NCBI RefSeq assembly: GCF_003711225.1
Contig: NZ_CP031030.1
Coordinates: forward strand, 248,001 to 312,000
Source: Runella sp. SP2
Lineage (GTDB): Bacteria > Bacteroidota > Bacteroidia > Cytophagales > Spirosomataceae
Length of the DNA: 64,000 nucleotides
Direction: 5' to 3'
Shown here: in pieces, positions 4,266-28,522 of the stretch
How the letters are laid out: every line of letters starts with the position of its first letter
Numbering within the stretch: position 1 is the first letter of the stretch
Notes under the pieces: model-generated
What the model was told of the DNA's origin: nothing
Seen by the model: only the letters and a program-made list of their open reading frames with translations
Databases searched by the model: none
Translations under genes and position numbers: made by a program

Positions 4266-4994
4266 TCAAAAACTCAACTCATAAAACCATTGACAGAAAG
4301 CTTGCCAAAAAGGAAACTTGTAGAAATTGAGCACAGAATAATGATAGACCAACAGAACCCCCAAAGCAAGCGGAAATACATTCAGCCGTTTGTGCGACCG
4401 CCAATCCCAAATACTGAGCGCTATCAAGAGCAAATCGGTCAATAAAAAACCTGCCACGGGCGTGATAGGCCATCCTTCTAATGTGGGCAAATAAGCCCGA
4501 ATACCAGGCGCAAAATGACCAATGAGTCGGTCGGTAATGGGCGTAACCATGGGAAAAGTACTGCAAACCAAGTACCGTGCGTGAATGGTCGCTTTCTTTT
4601 TGTAATAAATTCCCAAACCGTACAAAATCAAAAAAGCAATGAGCGCGTTGATTACCAATGCAATAAAGAAATATTCCATCGTTCCTAACGCTTGGCTCTT
4701 GCCAATTTGGAATTTGAGCAAATCCAACGTAGTGAGGATAATCAACGGAACCAATACGTAAGAATATTTCCCAACCTGGCGGTGCAATGCCGTTTTCTTT
4801 TGGCGAATGAGGTAAGGTTGCACAACCAGCATGGCGCACCACAAAATGAGGCTGATACCGTGGGTGTGCATTCGATAATTGGCTTGGTCTAGCAATCGGG
4901 AAAAATAACTAAACCAAAAGCCGATGACCATCAACAGGAAAAATCCAATGAAGTAGAAGTGACTTTTTTTGAATAACGTAGTTTCGAGTTTCAT
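4266..4994 (-). CDS. small polytopic membrane protein of unknown function
   Basis: I do not recognise the family firmly. From the ATG at 4994 it has 242 residues and about seven hydrophobic helices. The motif HTHGISLILW and the segment TALHRQVGKYSYVLV resemble small haem- or quinone-associated membrane proteins of the DUF2306 type, where His residues sit at helix ends, but the likeness is weak. A longer frame to 5021 would overlap the upstream kinase stop. It follows the kinase genes by 23 bases and is probably cotranscribed with them, so it could be a membrane partner or simply an operon passenger. Confidence 0.55.
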   Translation of the reverse strand: MKLETTLFKKSHFYFIGFFLLMVIGFWFSYFSRLLDQANYRMHTHGISLILWCAMLVVQPYLIRQKKTALHRQVGKYSYVLVPLIILTTLDLLKFQIGKSQALGTMEYFFIALVINALIAFLILYGLGIYYKKKATIHARYLVCSTFPMVTPITDRLIGHFAPGIRAYLPTLEGWPITPVAGFLLTDLLLIALSIWDWRSHKRLNVFPLALGVLLVYHYSVLNFYKFPFWQAFCQWFYELSF

Positions 4995-5017
4995 AGATGA
5001 GTGAGTTTTTAGGGGAA

Positions 5018-7222
5018 TCAAACGGAGGGAAGTACTGAAATCGGTAGCGTAATCGTAAACGTTGTTCCTTTTCCTTCTGCACTTTCTACTCTCAAGGTGC
5101 CACCGTGCCCTTTGGTAATGATGTCATAACTCAAACTCAAGCCAAGCCCTGTACCCTCGCCCGTGGGTTTGGTGGTGAAGAAAGGTTGGAAGATTTTGGG
5201 TAAAATGTCATTTGGAATCCCGTTTCCGTTGTCGCTTACTTTTATTTCGACTGCAATTGCAAGGCGTTTTGTTTGTACCGATACGGTTGGGGCTGGTAGG
5301 GACGTTGCATGCAACGTCCCTACGGTATTTCGTTGGTTGACGGCGTAAAAGGCGTTATTAAACAAATTTAACAGGACGCGGCCAAGGTCTTGCGGTACGA
5401 CATTGACAGCTGGGAGAGAAGGGTCAAGATTAGCCTGAAAATCAGCATTGAACGATTTGTCTTTGGCCCTCATTCCGTGAAAGGAGAGCCGCAAATATTC
5501 GTCGCACAGGGCGTTGATGTCGGTGGGTTGGCGTTCGCCAGTGCCCATCCGCGAGTGGCCGAGCATGCCCTTGACGATGGAAGAAGCGCGCTTGCCGTGG
5601 TGATTGATTTTCTCTTGGTTTTGGGTTAAATCGGCGAGTAGTTCGCTGATAAGGTCAGGTTCTTTTTCAGTGTCGGGCTTTTCAAATTCCTCTTTCAATT
5701 CGCTCACAAGTTCAATGGATAATTCCGAAAAGTTATTGACAAAGTTCAACGGATTCTGAATTTCGTGGGCAATCCCTGCGGTTAGTTCACCAAGACTCGC
5801 CATTTTTTCCTTTTGCACCAGTTGGTCTTGCGCTGCTTTTAACTCTTCCAGCGACTTCTCTAGCTTGGATGTTCGCTCGCGCACTTGGCGTTCGAGGGTT
5901 TCGTTCTGGGCCTCCAAAATTTGTTGTTTTTCTTGTTCTTGCTGCAACGTCTTTTGGGTAAGCGAGTTATTTTCCTGCAACTTTTCAATCAGTACTTTAT
6001 TGGTTTGGGAAAAGCTGATGGCTAAGTAAAGCGAGATTGAAAGCGGAACGCACAAAACGGCGATTTGGTAGGTAATAATGCCTCCAAAACCTTGCGGAAA
6101 CAGGGGCGCTAGGCCGTAGTATTCGAGGAGAACATCGAAGTAAAACAACATAAACATGACCAGCGAAAGACACATCCCAATCATAATGAGGCGTGCGCCA
6201 GGCTGGTGTTTACGAAGTGCAACGAGCGTTACCCGAATCACTTCGGCGGTCATTAGGAGTTCCGTGCCAAATTCGGCCCATATAGAACCAAGCGAGTACG
6301 GCGTAAAAAGGCTAAGCATGATAAAAGTGCCAAACACAACGATAAGCCAAAAGAGGATGCCCGTTTTTTGGTGAAAAATCTCGTAAATGGCACGGATTAG
6401 GAACAAATAAGCAATGGGAAAAGAAATAGTTTGAATAAATTCGACGATGAAATAGAGGGAGAGCGTCTCGACAAAATCGAACGAAAGGGGAATACAAAAA
6501 AACGCAACCCCCAAGGCGAAGGTCGTACCTGAGAAAAAAAGATTGGCGCGTTGCGTGCGGTAGAGAAAGAAAAACGATAAATGTAAAAAGGTAAGAATAA
6601 AAAATACGCCTACTTGAAACCACCCGTAATAACTTTGTAAACGTAGGTAGGCCGAGGTTTTGGGCGCGTTTTCGGTTTCTATGAGCGTTGCCCTAAAACA
6701 GTGGTTTTTGTTGAACCCTACGCGATTGTAAAACGAGTTTCGCTCGTACGCTACCCGAACAGAAATTTGCACAAACGGATAACTGACCGAATAAGGAAGA
6801 CCGATGGAGCTGTTTTGAAAAATGTGGGCCGCTTGTACAACACCCCGCTTTAGGTCAATTTTACCGATGGTACGTGCCAGCAGCCCATTGATATACACTT
6901 CCGAGGCCACGCTTTGGCTGATTTGAAGGGTAGTCAGTTTTTGAGCAACTACGGGTGAAAACTCAATCGTCGTTCGGAACCATCCGTAGCCTTTTTGCGA
7001 AAGCCCTGGTATGGTATTTACGTCTTGTGTGGGGTCAACTATTTGCCAATCACTGTCGTCAAATTCGGGATTAGTCCATTCATGGTTGTCGCCCGCGTGC
7101 CATTTCCATCCATTGGTCAACACCAACCCTTTGGACGGAATACTGTCGATGCTACTGACGTTTTGGCCTTGGGCAACGACCCAAAACAGCAAAAAGAAAA
7201 GGATTAAAATCGGGTTTTTCAT
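5018..7222 (-). CDS. sensor histidine kinase with Gal-binding-like sensor and 7TM region (array copy 1)
   Basis: The start at 7222 gives 734 residues with a signal peptide ending VAQGQ. In order I see a jelly-roll, galactose-binding-like extracellular domain (about 25-190, with EVYINGLLARTIGKI), about seven TM helices (205-410, 7TM-DISM layout), a coiled coil (420-470), HisKA with the phospho-acceptor His486 in [12 protein letters not shown], and a HATPase domain with VKVSDNGNGIP and GTGLGLSL. No receiver domain follows. It is the last kinase of four tandem paralogs. A perfect 28-bp palindrome at 5296-5323 lies in its coding sequence in a loop of the ATPase domain. The partner response regulator must be elsewhere. 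Confidence 0.9.
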   Translation of the reverse strand: MKNPILILFFLLFWVVAQGQNVSSIDSIPSKGLVLTNGWKWHAGDNHEWTNPEFDDSDWQIVDPTQDVNTIPGLSQKGYGWFRTTIEFSPVVAQKLTTLQISQSVASEVYINGLLARTIGKIDLKRGVVQAAHIFQNSSIGLPYSVSYPFVQISVRVAYERNSFYNRVGFNKNHCFRATLIETENAPKTSAYLRLQSYYGWFQVGVFFILTFLHLSFFFLYRTQRANLFFSGTTFALGVAFFCIPLSFDFVETLSLYFIVEFIQTISFPIAYLFLIRAIYEIFHQKTGILFWLIVVFGTFIMLSLFTPYSLGSIWAEFGTELLMTAEVIRVTLVALRKHQPGARLIMIGMCLSLVMFMLFYFDVLLEYYGLAPLFPQGFGGIITYQIAVLCVPLSISLYLAISFSQTNKVLIEKLQENNSLTQKTLQQEQEKQQILEAQNETLERQVRERTSKLEKSLEELKAAQDQLVQKEKMASLGELTAGIAHEIQNPLNFVNNFSELSIELVSELKEEFEKPDTEKEPDLISELLADLTQNQEKINHHGKRASSIVKGMLGHSRMGTGERQPTDINALCDEYLRLSFHGMRAKDKSFNADFQANLDPSLPAVNVVPQDLGRVLLNLFNNAFYAVNQRNTVGTLHATSLPAPTVSVQTKRLAIAVEIKVSDNGNGIPNDILPKIFQPFFTTKPTGEGTGLGLSLSYDIITKGHGGTLRVESAEGKGTTFTITLPISVLPSV
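5296..5323. repeat. 28-bp perfect palindrome inside kinase copy 1
   Basis: GTAGGGACGTTGCA followed by its exact reverse complement TGCAACGTCCCTAC. On the minus strand it encodes VGTLHATSL (residues 634-642) in a variable loop after the N-box of the HATPase domain, without breaking the frame. Confidence 0.9.
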
Positions 7223-20682: not shown

Positions 20683-21336
20683 TTATTTAGAGGTGAATTT
20701 TGAAATGATAATACCGACGACGGCCACCATATAAAACTGCCCTACTACACCCCAAAAAGCAGCTAATAGCCTAGCATTGTCGGCCTTGGGGGTGATGTCG
20801 CCGTACCCAATGGTCGTTAGGGTAATGCTACTAAAATAAACGACTTGATGGTACTTCTCTGGAATAGTCGTTCCTTGGAGATTTTGGAAAGCATTGGGAA
20901 GATGAAAGTCGATAAGTAAAAAGCTAAAAGAAGCGACGACAATGATGAGTAAAAAGCCACTTAACGACCCCATGATGATGCTTTCGGTTACTTCGTTTTT
21001 ATTGATAATTTGCCTGATAACCTCGGTGAAAATAATGGTATAAAAAAGCAAATAAGACCATAAGGCAACCTGGGTCAGTACCGAATTGACGAAGATAGTT
21101 CGTGCCGCTATCGGTACGGCGATTACTGAAATAATTAAAATATTTTTTACCCACTTTATCAGCAAATTTTGGTCGTGAAATAAGCCAAACGACCCTACGC
21201 CCAACAAAAGCATGTTGGTAGGCCAAACATAACTGGAGTAAATAGTATCGGAGAAAATGACGATTTTATCAAAAATAGCGAGGGTCAAAATGCTGAGTAA
21301 AAACTCAAATCTGTATTTCAGTAAGTGCTTTTTCAT
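20683..21336 (-). CDS. K+ channel family protein
   Basis: The protein has 217 residues and about six hydrophobic helices; the last two bracket a pore loop with the potassium selectivity filter TTIGYGD (about 178-184). There is no voltage-sensor Arg ladder and no cytoplasmic RCK domain, so it is a minimal channel with extra N-terminal helices. Its ATG overlaps the bestrophin stop by one base (TAATG), implying coupled translation. Paired expression of a cation channel with an anion channel suggests joint control of ion balance or membrane potential. Confidence 0.82.
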   Translation of the reverse strand: MKKHLLKYRFEFLLSILTLAIFDKIVIFSDTIYSSYVWPTNMLLLGVGSFGLFHDQNLLIKWVKNILIISVIAVPIAARTIFVNSVLTQVALWSYLLFYTIIFTEVIRQIINKNEVTESIIMGSLSGFLLIIVVASFSFLLIDFHLPNAFQNLQGTTIPEKYHQVVYFSSITLTTIGYGDITPKADNARLLAAFWGVVGQFYMVAVVGIIISKFTSK

Positions 21337-22274
21337 TAGTGGAGAAATCCGTTTTGAGCTTCAATTTTTGCAGGTAAGTTACGTTCTTCCAGCATTTCTT
21401 TCAAGTCTCGCTCAATGGTATTGCAAATAGACGTCATCGGAACATCGGTGATTCGATTCTCAAACGGGTCTTCGTTGACTTCACCTACTTTACCCATTAC
21501 CCCAAACACAAACGAAACGAGCATACTCACGGGAATCATCAGGGCAGGAATGCCCATTTTGTTGAAGTCACTTATCAACGAAAACGGAAGAATAACCATA
21601 AACACCAGCATAAATAATTTGGTGAAAAAATGGTATTGACGCAGAAGGGGCGTGTTTTTAATGCGTTCGCACGCTCCTTGAAAATTATTAAAACCCGCTA
21701 GTGTAGGTTCGAGACTAATGTTGTCGAATGCTCCTAAAATTTCTGAACGCATTCCTTCTTTGATACGAATACCTTGATTTTGAAGTAAATAGTTGGGTTT
21801 GTTAGTTTTTTGGAGGAGGTGTTGGTACTCATGTTCTGACAATAAGTGTTTGACCTCGTCCCATGAATCCTGACGACGAAGGTGTAAGCGTAGCGCATGA
21901 GCAAAGGCAATTTGACGGTAAATCAATTCCTTTTTGTAATCATCGACCTGCTGTGGGGAGGCTTTGCCAACCGCGACGGCGTTGTCGGCATTGGCGATGA
22001 TTTGGCGGGCAAAAATTCGACTATTGTTAATAATACTCCCCCAAAGGGTGCGAGCTTCCCACCAACGACTGTAGGAATTGTTGTTGCGAAAAGCTAAAAA
22101 AATGGCCAACGCACTCCCTAAAATGGCCGCGACAGAAAAGGGTAAAACTACTTTTTCAAGGTGCTGATTGTGATACAAAAAAAATACGCCTACCGTAAGT
22201 AAAGTAGAAACCAGTAACTCGGTAAGCATGTATCGAGCGACGGCAATGGGGTTAAATACTTTGCGTAGAATCAT
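21336..22274 (-). CDS. bestrophin-family anion channel (copy 1)
   Basis: The ATG at 22274 gives 312 residues. The pattern AFRNNNSYSRWWEARTLWGSIINNSR and the C-terminal ENRITDVPMTSICNTIERDL mark the bestrophin family, pentameric anion channels that pass chloride and bicarbonate; the bacterial KpBest passes cations instead. About four TM helices are visible. It starts 5 bases after the outer-membrane protein stop and overlaps the K+ channel start. A second bestrophin lies at 27512-28522. Confidence 0.85.
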   Translation of the reverse strand: MILRKVFNPIAVARYMLTELLVSTLLTVGVFFLYHNQHLEKVVLPFSVAAILGSALAIFLAFRNNNSYSRWWEARTLWGSIINNSRIFARQIIANADNAVAVGKASPQQVDDYKKELIYRQIAFAHALRLHLRRQDSWDEVKHLLSEHEYQHLLQKTNKPNYLLQNQGIRIKEGMRSEILGAFDNISLEPTLAGFNNFQGACERIKNTPLLRQYHFFTKLFMLVFMVILPFSLISDFNKMGIPALMIPVSMLVSFVFGVMGKVGEVNEDPFENRITDVPMTSICNTIERDLKEMLEERNLPAKIEAQNGFLH

Positions 22275-22279
22275 GGTGG

Positions 22280-22945
22280 TTAGAATTCGTTGCGTATAAA
22301 AATTCCTAGATTTTGTGTGCTGGAGAATTCCTTTTTCCCTGTTTGATTGAGGTCTAGCATCAGTCCACCCGCCCATGTATGAAACCTTGTACCCAATCGA
22401 AAGCGCTGAGTAAGGTTCCAAAGTTGCGTATTTGGGGAATACACAGGAAATACTTCAGCTTGAAAAAAGCCTTTCCATTGACGGTTAATGGTAGGTTGAT
22501 AGCGGAAAAGACCAAATAAATCGATGTTATTTTCTTTTTTTACATCAGTCACAAGCCAGCCAAAAAACATAAAGTTCTCTTTTTGTTTGTTGTATTGAAT
22601 GCCCACTTTTGGGGTGAACCCTGCATTTAGAAAAGAGGCAACGCCAACAATCCCTAGTCCATTTTTGAAATTATACGAAAGGGCATTAGTCGAACCAAAG
22701 GCGGTGGGTGAATTTTGGTAATCGGTACTTGCTCGGTTACGGCTAAAAAACAGGAACGGTGTGGTTTCGTTTTCGATATTTTTGAAGTTTTTAAACCACA
22801 TTAAGTCTATGCCCGCCCGTTTATGCCCCGCATATATTTCTACTGATTGGGCATGGGAGGATATAAAGCCTGTGAGTAGGAAAAGAAGGAGAAATTTTAC
22901 ACTGTTAAGCACCATCGTTGATGAGTGTTGTAGGTGTTTTTTCAC
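22280..22945 (-). CDS. outer-membrane beta-barrel-like protein
   Basis: The protein has 221 residues, or 211 if the ATG at 22915 is used. A signal peptide ends SSHAQ, followed by alternating aromatic beta strands and a C-terminal phenylalanine (IFIRNEF), as in small outer-membrane barrels. I do not recognise a named family. It is the first gene of the operon with bestrophin and K+ channel, so it could be an outer-membrane pore that matches the inner-membrane channels; this is inference. Confidence 0.6.
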   Translation of the reverse strand: MKKHLQHSSTMVLNSVKFLLLFLLTGFISSHAQSVEIYAGHKRAGIDLMWFKNFKNIENETTPFLFFSRNRASTDYQNSPTAFGSTNALSYNFKNGLGIVGVASFLNAGFTPKVGIQYNKQKENFMFFGWLVTDVKKENNIDLFGLFRYQPTINRQWKGFFQAEVFPVYSPNTQLWNLTQRFRLGTRFHTWAGGLMLDLNQTGKKEFSSTQNLGIFIRNEF

Positions 22946-24455: not shown

Positions 24456-25235
24456 TTAAACGTATTGATTAAAAAACAGCAGTGTATCCGCTATGTGTTC
24501 TTCCCAATACTCCCACGAATGACCACCTGAAAATTCTTGGTAGGTGTGTTGTATGTCGTTGATAGATAGGTTTTTGTGTAATTCTCGGTTGTGCTCAATT
24601 AAAATATCTTCGCTGCCACAATCGAGACGGAAAGGAGGTAAATGGTCTTTGTTTTTGAGCAAATAGTCCCAAACGCCGTCTTGTTCCAACGCATCTGATT
24701 GTAGTTGGTCGAAATCTTCCACAAACTCAGCAAGCTGACTAAAATGGGTGATACTTGACAAGCCCGAAAATGCCCGAAACAAACTGGGGTATTTTGCTCC
24801 CAAGCGCATTGCTCCAAAACCACCCATCGACAGCCCCGTAATAAAAATGGGGGACTCGTTCGTCGCTTGCGGGAACTGCTCTTTTATTACTTCTACCACA
24901 TCTTCTACAATCCAGCGCTCGTAATCGGCGGTTTTGTGGGGTACATAACCACTGCCATCACCGTACAATCCATCAGACGGCATCACCAATATCATGGGTT
25001 TGATTTGCCCCGCGTCTATGAGTTGTTGTGCCGTTTCGTGTACTTTTCCTTTTACTGCCCAAGCCCAATGACTGCCATACACTCCGTGCAACAAAATGAC
25101 AATAGGTAGCACTCCCTCGGTGGCTGAGGGGGTGTAAACGGTCAAATCTGCCCGTTTTTTCAACGCATTACTTTTAACGGTGATAAAGTGTAAACCTTGA
25201 AAAAAGGCATTTTCAGTCGTAAAAAATGAACTCAT
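24456..25235 (-). CDS. esterase, S-formylglutathione-hydrolase-like
   Basis: The ATG at 25235 gives 259 residues. The esterase-D fold shows LLHGVYGSHWAWAVKG, the nucleophile elbow GLSMGGFGAM, the acid in CGSEDILIEHN and the catalytic His in SGGHSWEYW. These agree with S-formylglutathione hydrolase and related carboxylesterases. It lies 10 bases after a class-III-like alcohol dehydrogenase, the usual partner in formaldehyde detoxification. Many Bacteroidota lack glutathione, so another thiol or a plain ester may be the substrate. Confidence 0.78.
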   Translation of the reverse strand: MSSFFTTENAFFQGLHFITVKSNALKKRADLTVYTPSATEGVLPIVILLHGVYGSHWAWAVKGKVHETAQQLIDAGQIKPMILVMPSDGLYGDGSGYVPHKTADYERWIVEDVVEVIKEQFPQATNESPIFITGLSMGGFGAMRLGAKYPSLFRAFSGLSSITHFSQLAEFVEDFDQLQSDALEQDGVWDYLLKNKDHLPPFRLDCGSEDILIEHNRELHKNLSINDIQHTYQEFSGGHSWEYWEEHIADTLLFFNQYV

Positions 25236-25245
25236 AGGGTTGTTT

Positions 25246-26352
25246 TTAAAACACAATGACTCCTTTGGCATTCACGCCCGCGTGCATGTCGGCAAACGCC
25301 TGCGATAAATCGCTAAGCGAGTAAGTGCGGGTCACCATTTCGTCTAAAATCAAAGCACCTTTGGCGTAGAGGTCTTGCAAAATGGGGAAGTCTATTTGTG
25401 GACGGGTCTTGCCGTACAATGGATTGATATACACCTTATCCCATTCAAATAGATTCATATCAATCACAATCTCCTGCTCTATGCCGCTGACCTGCACTGC
25501 CATGCCCGCATTTCGAACCATCGCCAACGGTGCTGCCCCCAATTCTGGAATGGCTGTGCACTCAAATGCATAATCAGCGCCGCGCCCGTTGGTCATGGTT
25601 TTGACTACTTTTGACGCATTCGACAAACCTTTGTCGGTTTTTTCGGCCAGAACCGTGTGCGTGGCGCCGTATTCTTTGGCCATTTCGAGCCGTAAAGGAT
25701 TGATATCGACGGCAATGATTTTGCCAGCGCCTGCGATGCGTGCGCCTTGGATAACATTCAGACCTACACCGCCCGTACCCAACACTACCACCGATGTGCC
25801 TGGTTTTACCTTGGCCGCATTCACTACCGACCCGTAGCCCGTCATTACGCCACAACCCACAATCGCCGCAGAAGCGAACGGCATCTCAACGTGCATTTTT
25901 ACACAAGCGGCCTCACGCACAAGGGTGTATTCGGACATGGTGCCGAGGCTAAAAGCGCGCTCAATTGGTACATCGTTGTAGGTGGTTGAACTAAAAGTGG
26001 CGTGTCCTTCGCTTAGTTTATTCCCCGCCGTGACGGCCGAATTACGTTCGCAAATGTGCTGATTTCCTTCTTGGCATTGAAAACATTCATAGCAGGGAAT
26101 CGCCCAATTGAGCATTACTTTGTCACCCACTTGCAGCGATTTTACGCGATTCCCTACTCTTTTTATAATACCAGCCCCTTCATGTCCCATTACCAGCGGC
26201 TTTCCCCACGACTGCGAATCCCAGTCGGTATGGCATACTCCTGCGGCTTTGATTTCTACCAATACCTCATCACCTTGTGGGTCGGCTACGGTGATGTTTT
26301 GAATGGAAAAATGACCGTTGCCATCGGCAATGGCGGCTTTGGATTGTAACAT
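25246..26352 (-). CDS. Zn-dependent alcohol dehydrogenase (class III-like)
   Basis: The protein has 368 residues. Catalytic Zn ligands are in GVCHTDWD and GHEGAGI and in the later VGCGVMTGYG; the structural Zn site is CYECFQCQEGNQHIC (CxxCxxCx7C). The Rossmann motif is GTGGVGLNVIQGA with an acidic residue after it (VDINPLRL), which favours NAD. Length and motifs match AdhC / glutathione-dependent formaldehyde dehydrogenase. It is followed 10 bases later by an esterase and preceded 39 bases by the HopJ-family gene. Confidence 0.85.
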   Translation of the reverse strand: MLQSKAAIADGNGHFSIQNITVADPQGDEVLVEIKAAGVCHTDWDSQSWGKPLVMGHEGAGIIKRVGNRVKSLQVGDKVMLNWAIPCYECFQCQEGNQHICERNSAVTAGNKLSEGHATFSSTTYNDVPIERAFSLGTMSEYTLVREAACVKMHVEMPFASAAIVGCGVMTGYGSVVNAAKVKPGTSVVVLGTGGVGLNVIQGARIAGAGKIIAVDINPLRLEMAKEYGATHTVLAEKTDKGLSNASKVVKTMTNGRGADYAFECTAIPELGAAPLAMVRNAGMAVQVSGIEQEIVIDMNLFEWDKVYINPLYGKTRPQIDFPILQDLYAKGALILDEMVTRTYSLSDLSQAFADMHAGVNAKGVIVF

Positions 26353-26391
26353 GGGTTCGTGCTTTTTAAATGTTGCAGTTTATCTCACGAA

Positions 26392-26718
26392 TTATTTCGC
26401 TTTTAATGCTTCGCCTTCAAACTGAATACCGTCCCAGCCGTACTTGATAAAGTTGCGGATGTTTTGGTGATCGTTGCCGTCGGGGTTACCGAGGACGTCT
26501 TTGTTGTAAAAATCACCAAAGCAATGCAAAGTTTCTTGTTGGCTCAAGCCAGCTATTTTGGCAAAAGAAAATACTTTGCACGAACCTGAATTTTGTCCTG
26601 CCTCATTGTACGTTTCGCCGTTTTTGAAGGCCGTAGGGGTAAATTCAAAATTTGCCTCAATGTGGGCAATCACTTCTTGAAAACTGATTTCGTTGGCTTT
26701 AATTTTATCTAAAATCAT
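26392..26718 (-). CDS. HopJ-type (PF08888) family protein
   Basis: The protein has 108 residues with FEFTPTAFKNG, SCKVFSFAKI and NPDGNDHQNIRNFI, the pattern of the HopJ family. The name comes from a Pseudomonas type III effector, but the family is widespread in free-living bacteria without such a secretion system and none is seen here; its function is unknown. It lacks a signal peptide. A TACCTTTG promoter match lies at 26735-26742, so it may start a unit with the alcohol dehydrogenase and esterase. Confidence 0.82.
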   Translation of the reverse strand: MILDKIKANEISFQEVIAHIEANFEFTPTAFKNGETYNEAGQNSGSCKVFSFAKIAGLSQQETLHCFGDFYNKDVLGNPDGNDHQNIRNFIKYGWDGIQFEGEALKAK

Positions 26719-26746: not shown

Positions 26747-27493
26747 TTATACAGTCAGCAATTCCATCAAATCACGTTTTTGACCCGATTCCAAGTCAAT
26801 TAATTCAAAGCGTTTGGCGGAGGTATAAGATCCCATGTCGGTATCGCTGTTGATAAGAACTGCACCCATCAAAATCACGTATTTGCAGTTGTAGGTAGTT
26901 TTGGAAACCAATTCACAAATACGAGCGTCAATGGCTTCATAAATTACTTCAGTCGCTTCATAAAGAGGGGTTTGGGCGGAAAGAATGCGTTCTTTTTGTT
27001 TGAGCAATATCTGTTCAAGCATGTTCATTTGGTAATCCAATTCAGTGATGTTTCCCTCAACGATTTGGTTGGTCATTAACTTTGCCAAGGCTCCTTTCGC
27101 AGCCCCGCAGCAGCCGCTGTTTTTGTGTTGTCCAAAACGGTGAATTTCGCCAATAGTGCCCGTTTTGGTAATCCCGATATGCGGGCCGTAGTAAATAAAC
27201 ACCGCGCCATTGTCAGGAACGTGGCTGGCAAAAGCGCCCATGCCCGTTAGCCCCGTAAAAGGAAACCCGTCTAGGCCACCCATTTTGAAGGGGCCGAGCA
27301 GTTCTTTGGTACGAGCAGGGTATTGAATACTGTTGACGTCGTCGCTGCAAACGCTGTCGGCAAGCATTACTTGTTCGGGTTCGAGGTTGAGGTGTTCTTC
27401 GATAAAGTCAATAAAACGATTGACGCTGTCGATGGTCGTAATGGCATTAGGATACCACTGACGAATGATTTTTAATTTCTCTTTCTTGAGCAT
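26747..27493 (-). CDS. LCIB-family (theta-type) carbonic anhydrase
   Basis: The protein has 248 residues. It shows the LCIB/LCIC hallmark order: VCSDDVN (Cys49, Asp51), MGGLDGFPFTGLTG, FASHVPDNG, YYGPHIGITKTGTIGE (His105), HRFGQHKNSGCCGAA (Cys128/129). In the family, Cys-His-Cys bind zinc and an Asp (with an Arg in active diatom enzymes) completes the site; the Arg expected four residues after Cys49 is Val here, as I recall also for the Chlamydomonas proteins, so hydration activity is not certain. LCIB works with bestrophin-like bicarbonate channels in algae; here a bestrophin gene lies 18 bases upstream in the same operon. Confidence 0.8.
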   Translation of the reverse strand: MLKKEKLKIIRQWYPNAITTIDSVNRFIDFIEEHLNLEPEQVMLADSVCSDDVNSIQYPARTKELLGPFKMGGLDGFPFTGLTGMGAFASHVPDNGAVFIYYGPHIGITKTGTIGEIHRFGQHKNSGCCGAAKGALAKLMTNQIVEGNITELDYQMNMLEQILLKQKERILSAQTPLYEATEVIYEAIDARICELVSKTTYNCKYVILMGAVLINSDTDMGSYTSAKRFELIDLESGQKRDLMELLTV

Positions 27494-27511
27494 GATTTTT
27501 GCGAATTTGGG

Positions 27512-28522
27512 CTATAAAACAATGTTGTTTTGGGGTTGAATGGCGGGCGGAAGGTCAGTTTCACCAAGCATTTCCCGCATATCAATTTCGATGGTTCGGC
27601 TCATTTGGGAAATCGGAACGTCGTTGGGACTTCCTTCAAATGGGTTTTCGGTACTTTCACCCACTTGGTCGAGCGTGGTGTACATCCAGCAAATCAGAAT
27701 ACTAAACGGCACCACAAACCAAATCATGTGTCCTTGCAACACGCCCGAAATGGTTTCGTTGAGTTTGTCAAAATCTTTGAGCATTCCGTAGGGGAGGAGA
27801 ATGCAAAAAATCCGAATAAAAACGGTGTTAATCGTCGCAAACTGACGCGGATAGGGGAAGTTTTTGATGCGTTCGCTGCGGCCTTGCTGGTCGTACAAAT
27901 CCTTGATGGCGCGTTGCATTTCAACAAATTGAATGCTGTCGATTTGGTGGTTGCGGTACAGCTCCTTGATGGTTTTACTTTGTAAGCTCAGCAGTTGAGC
28001 CGCCTTGTTTTTAGTACCCATAATATACGAAAGTTCGTCTTTCGAAAGGTACTTTTCCAATTCGCTTTCCAACGAGCTTTGTTTTTCAGGAACAGAATAG
28101 TATTTGTCTTGGTACTCTATGTTATGTTGAAGCGACTGTGCTTCCCACGAGCGGCCATCGCGCATGGCATAGCGCAAGGCAGTTAGCCAAGCAAAATGCC
28201 GATAAACCAGTTGTTTAGACTGTTGAGGATTATCCAAAAAATCGCGTGCCATAACGCCCCACGCGCGGCTACTGTTGAGAATACTACCCCAAATTTGCCG
28301 CGCCTCCCAGGTTCGGTTGTAGGTTTGGGTATTCTTAAAACCCACAATGAAGGCCGTGGCGGTACCTAACAAGGCTACTACTGTCCAAGGTACAGCCAGC
28401 CATTGCAAATTTACATATTCGTACAAAAGCACAGGTATGACGCTCAGAATGACGAATTTGAAGATGTTTTTACGGGTCCAGATGAGAAGTTCGGCGGTTG
28501 AATATCTTTTTCCTGCGTGCAT
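27512..28522 (-). CDS. bestrophin-family anion channel (copy 2)
   Basis: The protein has 336 residues with about four TM helices, GFKNTQTYNRTWEARQIWGS near residue 60 and the C-terminal signature ENPFEGSPNDVPISQ. Both mark the bestrophin family. Unlike copy 1 at 21336-22274, it lies directly upstream (18 bases) of the LCIB-type carbonic anhydrase gene. The natural reading is a bicarbonate channel coupled to CO2/HCO3- interconversion; chloride transport is possible too. A palindrome (28641-28658) and a TACTTTTG match (28608-28615) lie upstream. Confidence 0.85.
   Translation of the reverse strand: MHAGKRYSTAELLIWTRKNIFKFVILSVIPVLLYEYVNLQWLAVPWTVVALLGTATAFIVGFKNTQTYNRTWEARQIWGSILNSSRAWGVMARDFLDNPQQSKQLVYRHFAWLTALRYAMRDGRSWEAQSLQHNIEYQDKYYSVPEKQSSLESELEKYLSKDELSYIMGTKNKAAQLLSLQSKTIKELYRNHQIDSIQFVEMQRAIKDLYDQQGRSERIKNFPYPRQFATINTVFIRIFCILLPYGMLKDFDKLNETISGVLQGHMIWFVVPFSILICWMYTTLDQVGESTENPFEGSPNDVPISQMSRTIEIDMREMLGETDLPPAIQPQNNIVL

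Follow-up and report, generated by a model that had tools for sequence, protein, structure and literature searches.

A recurring bestrophin-LCIB gene pair in Runella and other Bacteroidota as a candidate bicarbonate unit

LCIB has been studied as an algal CO2 protein. A Chlamydomonas interactome study, as related in PMC6708349, recovered LCIB/LCIC together with bestrophins. In the algal model described in that paper, bestrophins carry HCO3- from the stroma to the thylakoid lumen and LCIB acts on the outer side of the thylakoid. The physiological roles of the bestrophin family were called unknown in a 2016 abstract (PMC4893618). According to a review, the bestrophin KpBest is a Na+ channel with a neck formed by I62, I66 and F70, and its I66F mutant favours Cl- (PMC8496536). 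The preliminary description of the DNA analyzed here knew of no account of a bestrophin and an LCIB as a bacterial system, and we likewise found none among the matches listed when titles and abstract openings of the open-licence literature were searched.

We examined a stretch of 64,000 nucleotides from Runella sp. SP2, referred to as a whole as the window, which covers bases 248001-312000 on contig 1 in a genome of 7.6 Mb. It had been claimed from the letters that a bestrophin gene ends 18 bases before an LCIB gene in this window, and both the open reading frame coordinates (Table 1) and Pfam matches for the two families bore this out: the LCIB protein (P0001) scored 261.6 bits against LCIB_C_CA (PF18599; cut-off, 25) and the bestrophin (P0002) scored 149.1 bits against Bestrophin_2 (PF25539; cut-off, 27). 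The two loci nearest to the window's LCIB among the best 80 of 143 relatives, those of Runella defluvii and Runella limosa, encode proteins with 96% identity to it. A 108-aa open reading frame similar to P0003 was found at the equivalent place in two other loci (L164 and L165). When the neighbors of the window's own pair were read, neither a K+ channel gene nor a Na+/H+ exchanger gene was seen beside it.

Table 1. Coordinates, within the window, of the gene pair and the gene downstream of it
Feature	Position	Strand	Basis
Bestrophin P0002, first gene of the pair	27512..28522	-	336-aa open reading frame; PF25539; KpBest fold match; neck T54, F58, F62
LCIB-type carbonic anhydrase P0001 (predicted activity)	26747..27493	-	248-aa open reading frame; PF18599; C49, S50, D51, H91, H105, R119, C129
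Gap between bestrophin and LCIB genes, 18 bases	27494..27511	-	Open reading frame coordinates
HopJ-family gene P0003, separated from LCIB by 28 bases on the downstream side; candidate unit member	26392..26718	-	PF08888, 161 bits

On the 3' side of the pair and on the same strand, the window holds the HopJ-family gene, an alcohol dehydrogenase gene and an esterase gene (24456-26718, minus strand), and open reading frames similar to the first two of these keep their order in L164 and L165. A second bestrophin gene, of another subtype, lies 5 kb from the pair (21336-22421, minus strand; PF25539, 212 bits; neck S/I/F). Residue 60 is where its family match starts, so the TTG start listed for it probably lies too far upstream.

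The LCIB residues C49, D51, H91, H105, R119 and C129 were invariant in 15 aligned LCIBs of the phylum and again in 31 rows. Of the residues that had been named as lying in the family positions, C49, D51, H105 and C129 were therefore upheld, and C128 was not, as it is missing from 3 of the 15 aligned proteins; because of this difference, we regard C129, rather than its neighbor C128, as the likely ligand. We take C49, H105 and C129 to be the Cys, His and Cys zinc ligands of the LCIB family, and D51 and R119 are presumably the Asp-Arg pair with a functional role in this family. The PDB relatives of P0001 are 6kfs and 5b5y, and the P0001 model matched 6kfs and PtLCIB4, both LCIB-family proteins with solved structures. 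Ser50 of P0001 stands opposite Ser47 of PtLCIB4 in the alignment, and it is Ser47 that is changed in the S47R entry 5b60; this change reportedly abolishes activity. By alignment count, H88 of PtLCIB4 corresponds to H91 of P0001, and H105 corresponds to a later His. The model was weak at residues 50 to 80 (pLDDT below 50 for 50-62 and 64-80), so the geometry of the active site was not taken from it. The LCIB is probably an active zinc carbonic anhydrase of the cytosol, interconverting CO2 and HCO3-.

A beta-carbonic anhydrase (beta-CA) was present in each of the 43 LCIB genomes searched, which comprised 42 isolates of the 80-locus set described below and the window's genome, with family f24 outside the set. 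LCIB is therefore an additional enzyme and not the sole carbonic anhydrase of these genomes, and a housekeeping carbonic anhydrase as its sole role was ruled out. Contig 1 of the window's genome carries two beta-CA genes (4510777-4511229 and 4513045-4513497), approximately 1.8 kb apart on one strand, and two such genes with like spacing were seen in its relatives G395, G396 and G397. At about 8001-8768 of L072, a Spirosoma locus, the LCIB gene falls into two open pieces and so may be broken or hold a sequencing error.

An AF2 monomer model of P0002 (pLDDT, 91.6) was compared to known structures with Foldseek. Among the matches listed, the top 50 were all KpBest structures (prob 1.00), with TM scores of 0.68 to 0.75 by query and 0.83 to 0.93 by target and an identity of 21 to 22%; the chains of KpBest entry 4wd7 gave TM scores of 0.73 to 0.75 by query. 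By alignment, T54, F58 and F62 of P0002 lie at I62, I66 and F70 of KpBest, so that F58 and F62 fit the three-residue hydrophobic neck and the first position is a Thr. This first position was T in 40 and I in 7 of the 47 readable bestrophins linked to LCIB. The I66 position was occupied by Phe in all 47 (one further copy is truncated), and Phe was also found there in 20 of 20 bestrophins of P0002's type located away from LCIB. A comparison set of 35 proteins, made up mostly of other subtypes, had Phe at position 58 in 2, both of which (from L056 and L060) are of P0002's bestrophin type, and Leu, Ile, Met or Thr in the remaining 33. Since all 20 unlinked copies of this type have Phe, the residue marks the bestrophin subtype and not linkage, and its use as a mark of LCIB linkage was ruled out. 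Because Phe stands at the I66 position and the KpBest I66F mutant favours Cl-, the P0002-type bestrophin is predicted to be an anion channel; we infer that it is located in the inner membrane and passes HCO3- (and probably Cl-), this anion selectivity being predicted from one residue.

We then asked how widely the two genes occur side by side. To collect LCIB relatives, genomes were scanned with an alignment of five LCIBs by means of two peptide patterns. In all, 143 were found and the best 80 were kept, a set that leans to close relatives of the window's protein and in which several loci are MAG contigs, some of them ending near the gene. In 45 of these best 80 of 143 loci, a bestrophin gene adjoins the LCIB gene on the same strand, upstream in 39 and downstream in 6; no adjacent bestrophin was found in the other 35. 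The gap between the two genes was less than 90 bases in 44 of the 45 linked loci and 223 bases in one. When loci from isolates were sorted from those of MAGs by title, 20 of 43 were linked, and these include Runella, Arsenicibacter, Dyadobacter (D. fermentans), Emticicia, Rudanella, Flavobacterium, Chryseobacterium, Pedobacter and Sphingobacterium. By a rough estimate, in which genes are taken to number about one per kb and bestrophins about three in each genome, fewer than 0.001 same-strand adjacencies per genome would arise by chance. The adjacency of bestrophin and LCIB genes exceeds chance, and, with 45 of the best 80 of 143 loci linked, it is not confined to this strain, a point that the preliminary description had singled out for checking. 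Within the genus Runella, LCIB was present in 9 of 13 genomes in a total of 10 copies, 6 of which are linked, and one Runella genome carries two pairs with two bestrophin subtypes.

On the LCIB tree, scored with the states upstream, downstream and none, 19 changes were needed, compared to a mean of 30.9 after shuffling, in a tree that came from a quick search and has 35 of its 81 inner branches open. Even when just its starred branches are counted, no fewer than 5 changes are required for "upstream" and no fewer than 6 for "none," and the tree needs linkage to have been gained or lost repeatedly. Over the 45 pairs, identity to the window's proteins was 62 to 96% (median, 73%) for the LCIBs and 33 to 99% (median, 53%) for the bestrophins, and the bestrophin was less alike than the LCIB to the window's copy in 44 of the 45. 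Because the bestrophin identities range lower, LCIBs that resemble one another are paired with bestrophins that differ considerably. One linked locus (L107) lies on a MAG contig with a G+C content of 56.1%, for which the binning may be wrong. Its genome (G449) is placed outside Bacteroidota because its phylum holds 291 genomes, fewer than the group from which Bacteroidota were sampled. The surveys by phylum covered Bacteroidota and this second phylum; LCIB was found in 3 of these 291, and in the other two genomes there was no bestrophin within the 1.5 kb flanks examined. L107 is labelled Chthonomonas, and L077 is labelled Limnohabitans, yet the genome of the latter falls in the Bacteroidota sample. 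Spread of LCIB on plasmids was also considered, and the plasmid collection searched gave no LCIB match.

The bestrophin type was also followed beyond LCIB. A profile search found P0002-type bestrophins in 40 of 395 Bacteroidota genomes at E 1e-60 and, at 370 bits or more, at 46 sites in 34 of the 395 genomes; the surroundings were read for 20 of these sites, and all 46 were compared by coordinates. By coordinates, 3 sites touch LCIB, 2 touch a beta-CA gene, 5 touch a Na+/H+ exchanger gene and 36 touch none of these, so that a carbonic anhydrase touches 5 of 46. Four of the five exchanger-touching sites are on the same strand, and three of the five genomes are from one genus. In L143, 4 bases separate the bestrophin gene from a beta-CA gene (PF00484, 178.6 bits) that follows it, and in L145 a beta-CA gene (124.4 bits) lies 14 bases after a bestrophin gene interrupted by a stop; no LCIB was found in either genome. 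LCIB was absent from 30 of the 34 genomes with a P0002-type bestrophin and present in 4. Genome-level co-occurrence across the phylum was thus not found, and for this reason the case for a unit rests on adjacency. The 36 sites that touch none of these genes and the 30 genomes without LCIB indicate that this bestrophin type can also stand by itself or have partners to which it is not linked. Taken together, the conserved adjacency, the occurrence of both gene orders, the several bestrophin subtypes, the substitution of beta-CA for LCIB in two genomes and the second-phylum locus lend good support to a functional unit in bacteria made up of these two genes.

The neighbors of the 80 LCIB loci (best 80 of 143) were clustered, and one frequent small family was a protein of 221 to 236 aa present at 13 loci. 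All six copies scanned matched Ion_trans_2 (PF07885), and the motif TSIGFGD, noticed by eye in one copy, is presumably a K+ channel-like filter. A K+ channel gene of the PF07885 family lies directly upstream of the bestrophin gene in 12 of the 45 linked loci, at a gap of no more than 5 bases or overlapping in 9 of the 12. Another precedes LCIB, without a bestrophin, in L051, and partial copies precede the bestrophin in L003 and L005. TMEM175, which is a second K+ channel family unrelated to the PF07885 family, overlaps LCIB in L107 (PF06736, 104 bits) and overlaps a P0002-type bestrophin by one base in Runella aurantiaca (89.5 bits). A Na+/H+ exchanger gene was found 11 bases after the bestrophin gene in the linked loci L070, L073 and L079, 15 bases after it in L056 and L060, where LCIB is approximately 5 kb from the bestrophin, and following LCIB in L089; the exchangers were identified by PF00999 in L070 and L089, and the others are alike by phmmer. 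Neither a PF07885 channel nor a Na+/H+ exchanger was present in 30 of the 45 linked loci. Present at a fraction of the loci, these third genes suggest a connection with cation balance and pH.

A gene of 165 to 194 aa stands directly before the bestrophin gene in the linked loci L057, L077, L082 and L103, and the one copy scanned, that of L057, had no Pfam match. Two unlinked Flavobacterium LCIB genes (L088 and L096) lie near genes, at about 4700-7200, which by eye we take to be urease-subunit-like, urease presumably being another CO2-producing enzyme.

A different neighbor was found in family f24 of Bacteroidota. LCIB is present in 27 sampled genomes of this family, mostly without any bestrophin (found in 1 of the 27), and SbtA, which belongs to a family of Na+-dependent bicarbonate transporters, is present in 9 of them. 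In 8 of the 9 genomes having both, SbtA lies within 3 kb of LCIB (L016, L019, L026, G127, G139, G143, G235 and G266), and in L016 a P-II-like gene follows SbtA. These neighbors independently tie the LCIB family to bacterial bicarbonate transport, through an uptake transporter. The window's genome (G000) gave 0 matches to SbtA (PF05982).

In the reading that we prefer, and to which we give about an even chance of being correct, the pair is a bicarbonate unit in which a cytosolic carbonic anhydrase and an HCO3--permeable channel serve CO2/HCO3- exchange and pH control. The LCIB would act at or near the cytosolic mouth of the bestrophin. In a cell that is inside-negative, HCO3- would flow outward through the open channel, the proton from CO2 hydration would stay inside, and a K+ channel or Na+/H+ exchanger would balance charge and pH. 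The unit would thereby move bicarbonate out of the cell, discharge respiratory CO2 in the form of HCO3- and bring down or buffer the cytosolic pH. Counting against this reading are the 35 unlinked loci among the best 80 of 143, the 30 of 34 genomes that have the bestrophin type and no LCIB, the 30 of 45 linked loci, the window's own among them, where neither a K+ channel nor an exchanger was seen, and family f24, where LCIB mostly has no bestrophin and its SbtA neighbors speak for uptake. The direction of HCO3- movement would be outward; export, CO2 venting and pH control are favoured over uptake because of the inside-negative electrochemistry, the cation-gene neighbors and the correspondence of the algal stroma to the cytosol side. 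A more specific form of this reading is tentative and, in our estimate, somewhat unlikely: a unit for KHCO3 export and pH control, a bacterial counterpart of epithelial bicarbonate secretion, with carbonic anhydrase, anion channel and cation pathway encoded together. Equally tentative is the suggestion that such a KHCO3 unit has both an exchangeable carbonic anhydrase (LCIB or beta-CA) and an exchangeable cation pathway (either of two K+ channel families or a Na+/H+ exchanger). If the KHCO3 reading is true, the algal LCIB-bestrophin partnership has bacterial precedents and need not stem from photosynthesis.

Heterotrophs require HCO3- for carboxylation, and the pair could instead be an uptake or CO2-recapture module that feeds carboxylases, the LCIB making HCO3- for biotin carboxylases and the channel admitting HCO3- when it is plentiful outside. 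The SbtA genes within 3 kb of LCIB in eight of nine f24 genomes are in keeping with this, as is the place of algal LCIB and BST among low-CO2 proteins (PMC6708349). However, accumulation of HCO3- would be disfavoured because the channel is passive and the membrane inside-negative, a beta-CA is already there in each of the 43 LCIB genomes searched, and the K+ channel and Na+/H+ exchanger partners are left unexplained, and we consider such a role unlikely. The preliminary description had proposed a module of this kind. Its functional bacterial unit is well supported by adjacency, both gene orders and beta-CA substitution; its assignment to uptake or CO2 recapture for carboxylases stays a proposal.

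A further reading, which we find more doubtful, has the bestrophin conduct chiefly chloride in the service of membrane potential or osmotic control, with LCIB supplying no more than protons or HCO3- as a pH input or gate and no metabolic HCO3- flux. The Phe at the I66 position corresponds to the chloride preference of KpBest I66F, the K+ channel neighbors fit KCl movement, and most P0002-type bestrophin sites have no adjacent carbonic anhydrase, but a recurring carbonic anhydrase partner from either of two Pfam families is then unexplained. A bestrophin that is a Na+ channel like KpBest, in a pair coupling sodium entry with CO2 hydration, would agree with the fold match, in which the closest solved structure is a Na+ channel (PMC8496536), but every readable bestrophin of P0002's type carries the same residue as the KpBest mutant that favours anions, and we consider this reading very improbable. 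Least probable of all, with hardly any chance of being right, is that the adjacency is a hitchhike through shared transcription or horizontal transfer without joint function, since the 35 unlinked loci among the best 80 of 143, the mixing of families on the LCIB tree, which suggests transfer, and the lack of genome-level co-occurrence in the phylum sample are countered by both gene orders, several bestrophin subtypes, a second-phylum locus and beta-CA replacing LCIB in two genomes.

The bestrophin-LCIB pair is thus a real, recurring partnership of known families in a setting with no description among the literature matches listed, and what appears new is the bacterial unit, the exchangeable enzyme and the cation partners. 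Its compactness, and its presence in isolates that include Dyadobacter fermentans and Flavobacterium, open the roles of bestrophin and LCIB to simple genetics, and structural studies of an LCIB-bestrophin complex would have one soluble partner and one in the membrane. To judge from the conserved adjacency, the families of the Runella pair may act together, as in the algal system.

Compared to PtLCIB4 and 6kfs, P0001 has the same family and fold, with Ser50 at the Ser47 position, but the identity in the fold match is 26 to 29% and the activity of P0001 is predicted. P0002 shares its fold with KpBest and other bacterial bestrophins, but KpBest is a Na+ channel with chains of 296 to 301 residues and the neck I62, I66 and F70, whereas P0002 has 336 aa and T, F and F at these positions. 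In the SbtA/SbtB system, SbtA likewise occurs near LCIB, but in another family of the phylum, and it belongs to a Na+-dependent transporter family, not a channel, that is without a match in the window's genome. Chlamydomonas LCIB/LCIC and the bestrophin-like BST1-3, which belong to the CO2-concentrating mechanism, have two protein families in common with the Runella pair and place LCIB on the stromal, cytosol-like side. Conversely, the Chlamydomonas system serves Rubisco in the pyrenoid, whereas the bacterial unit consists of two genes, with a K+ channel or an exchanger in part of the loci.
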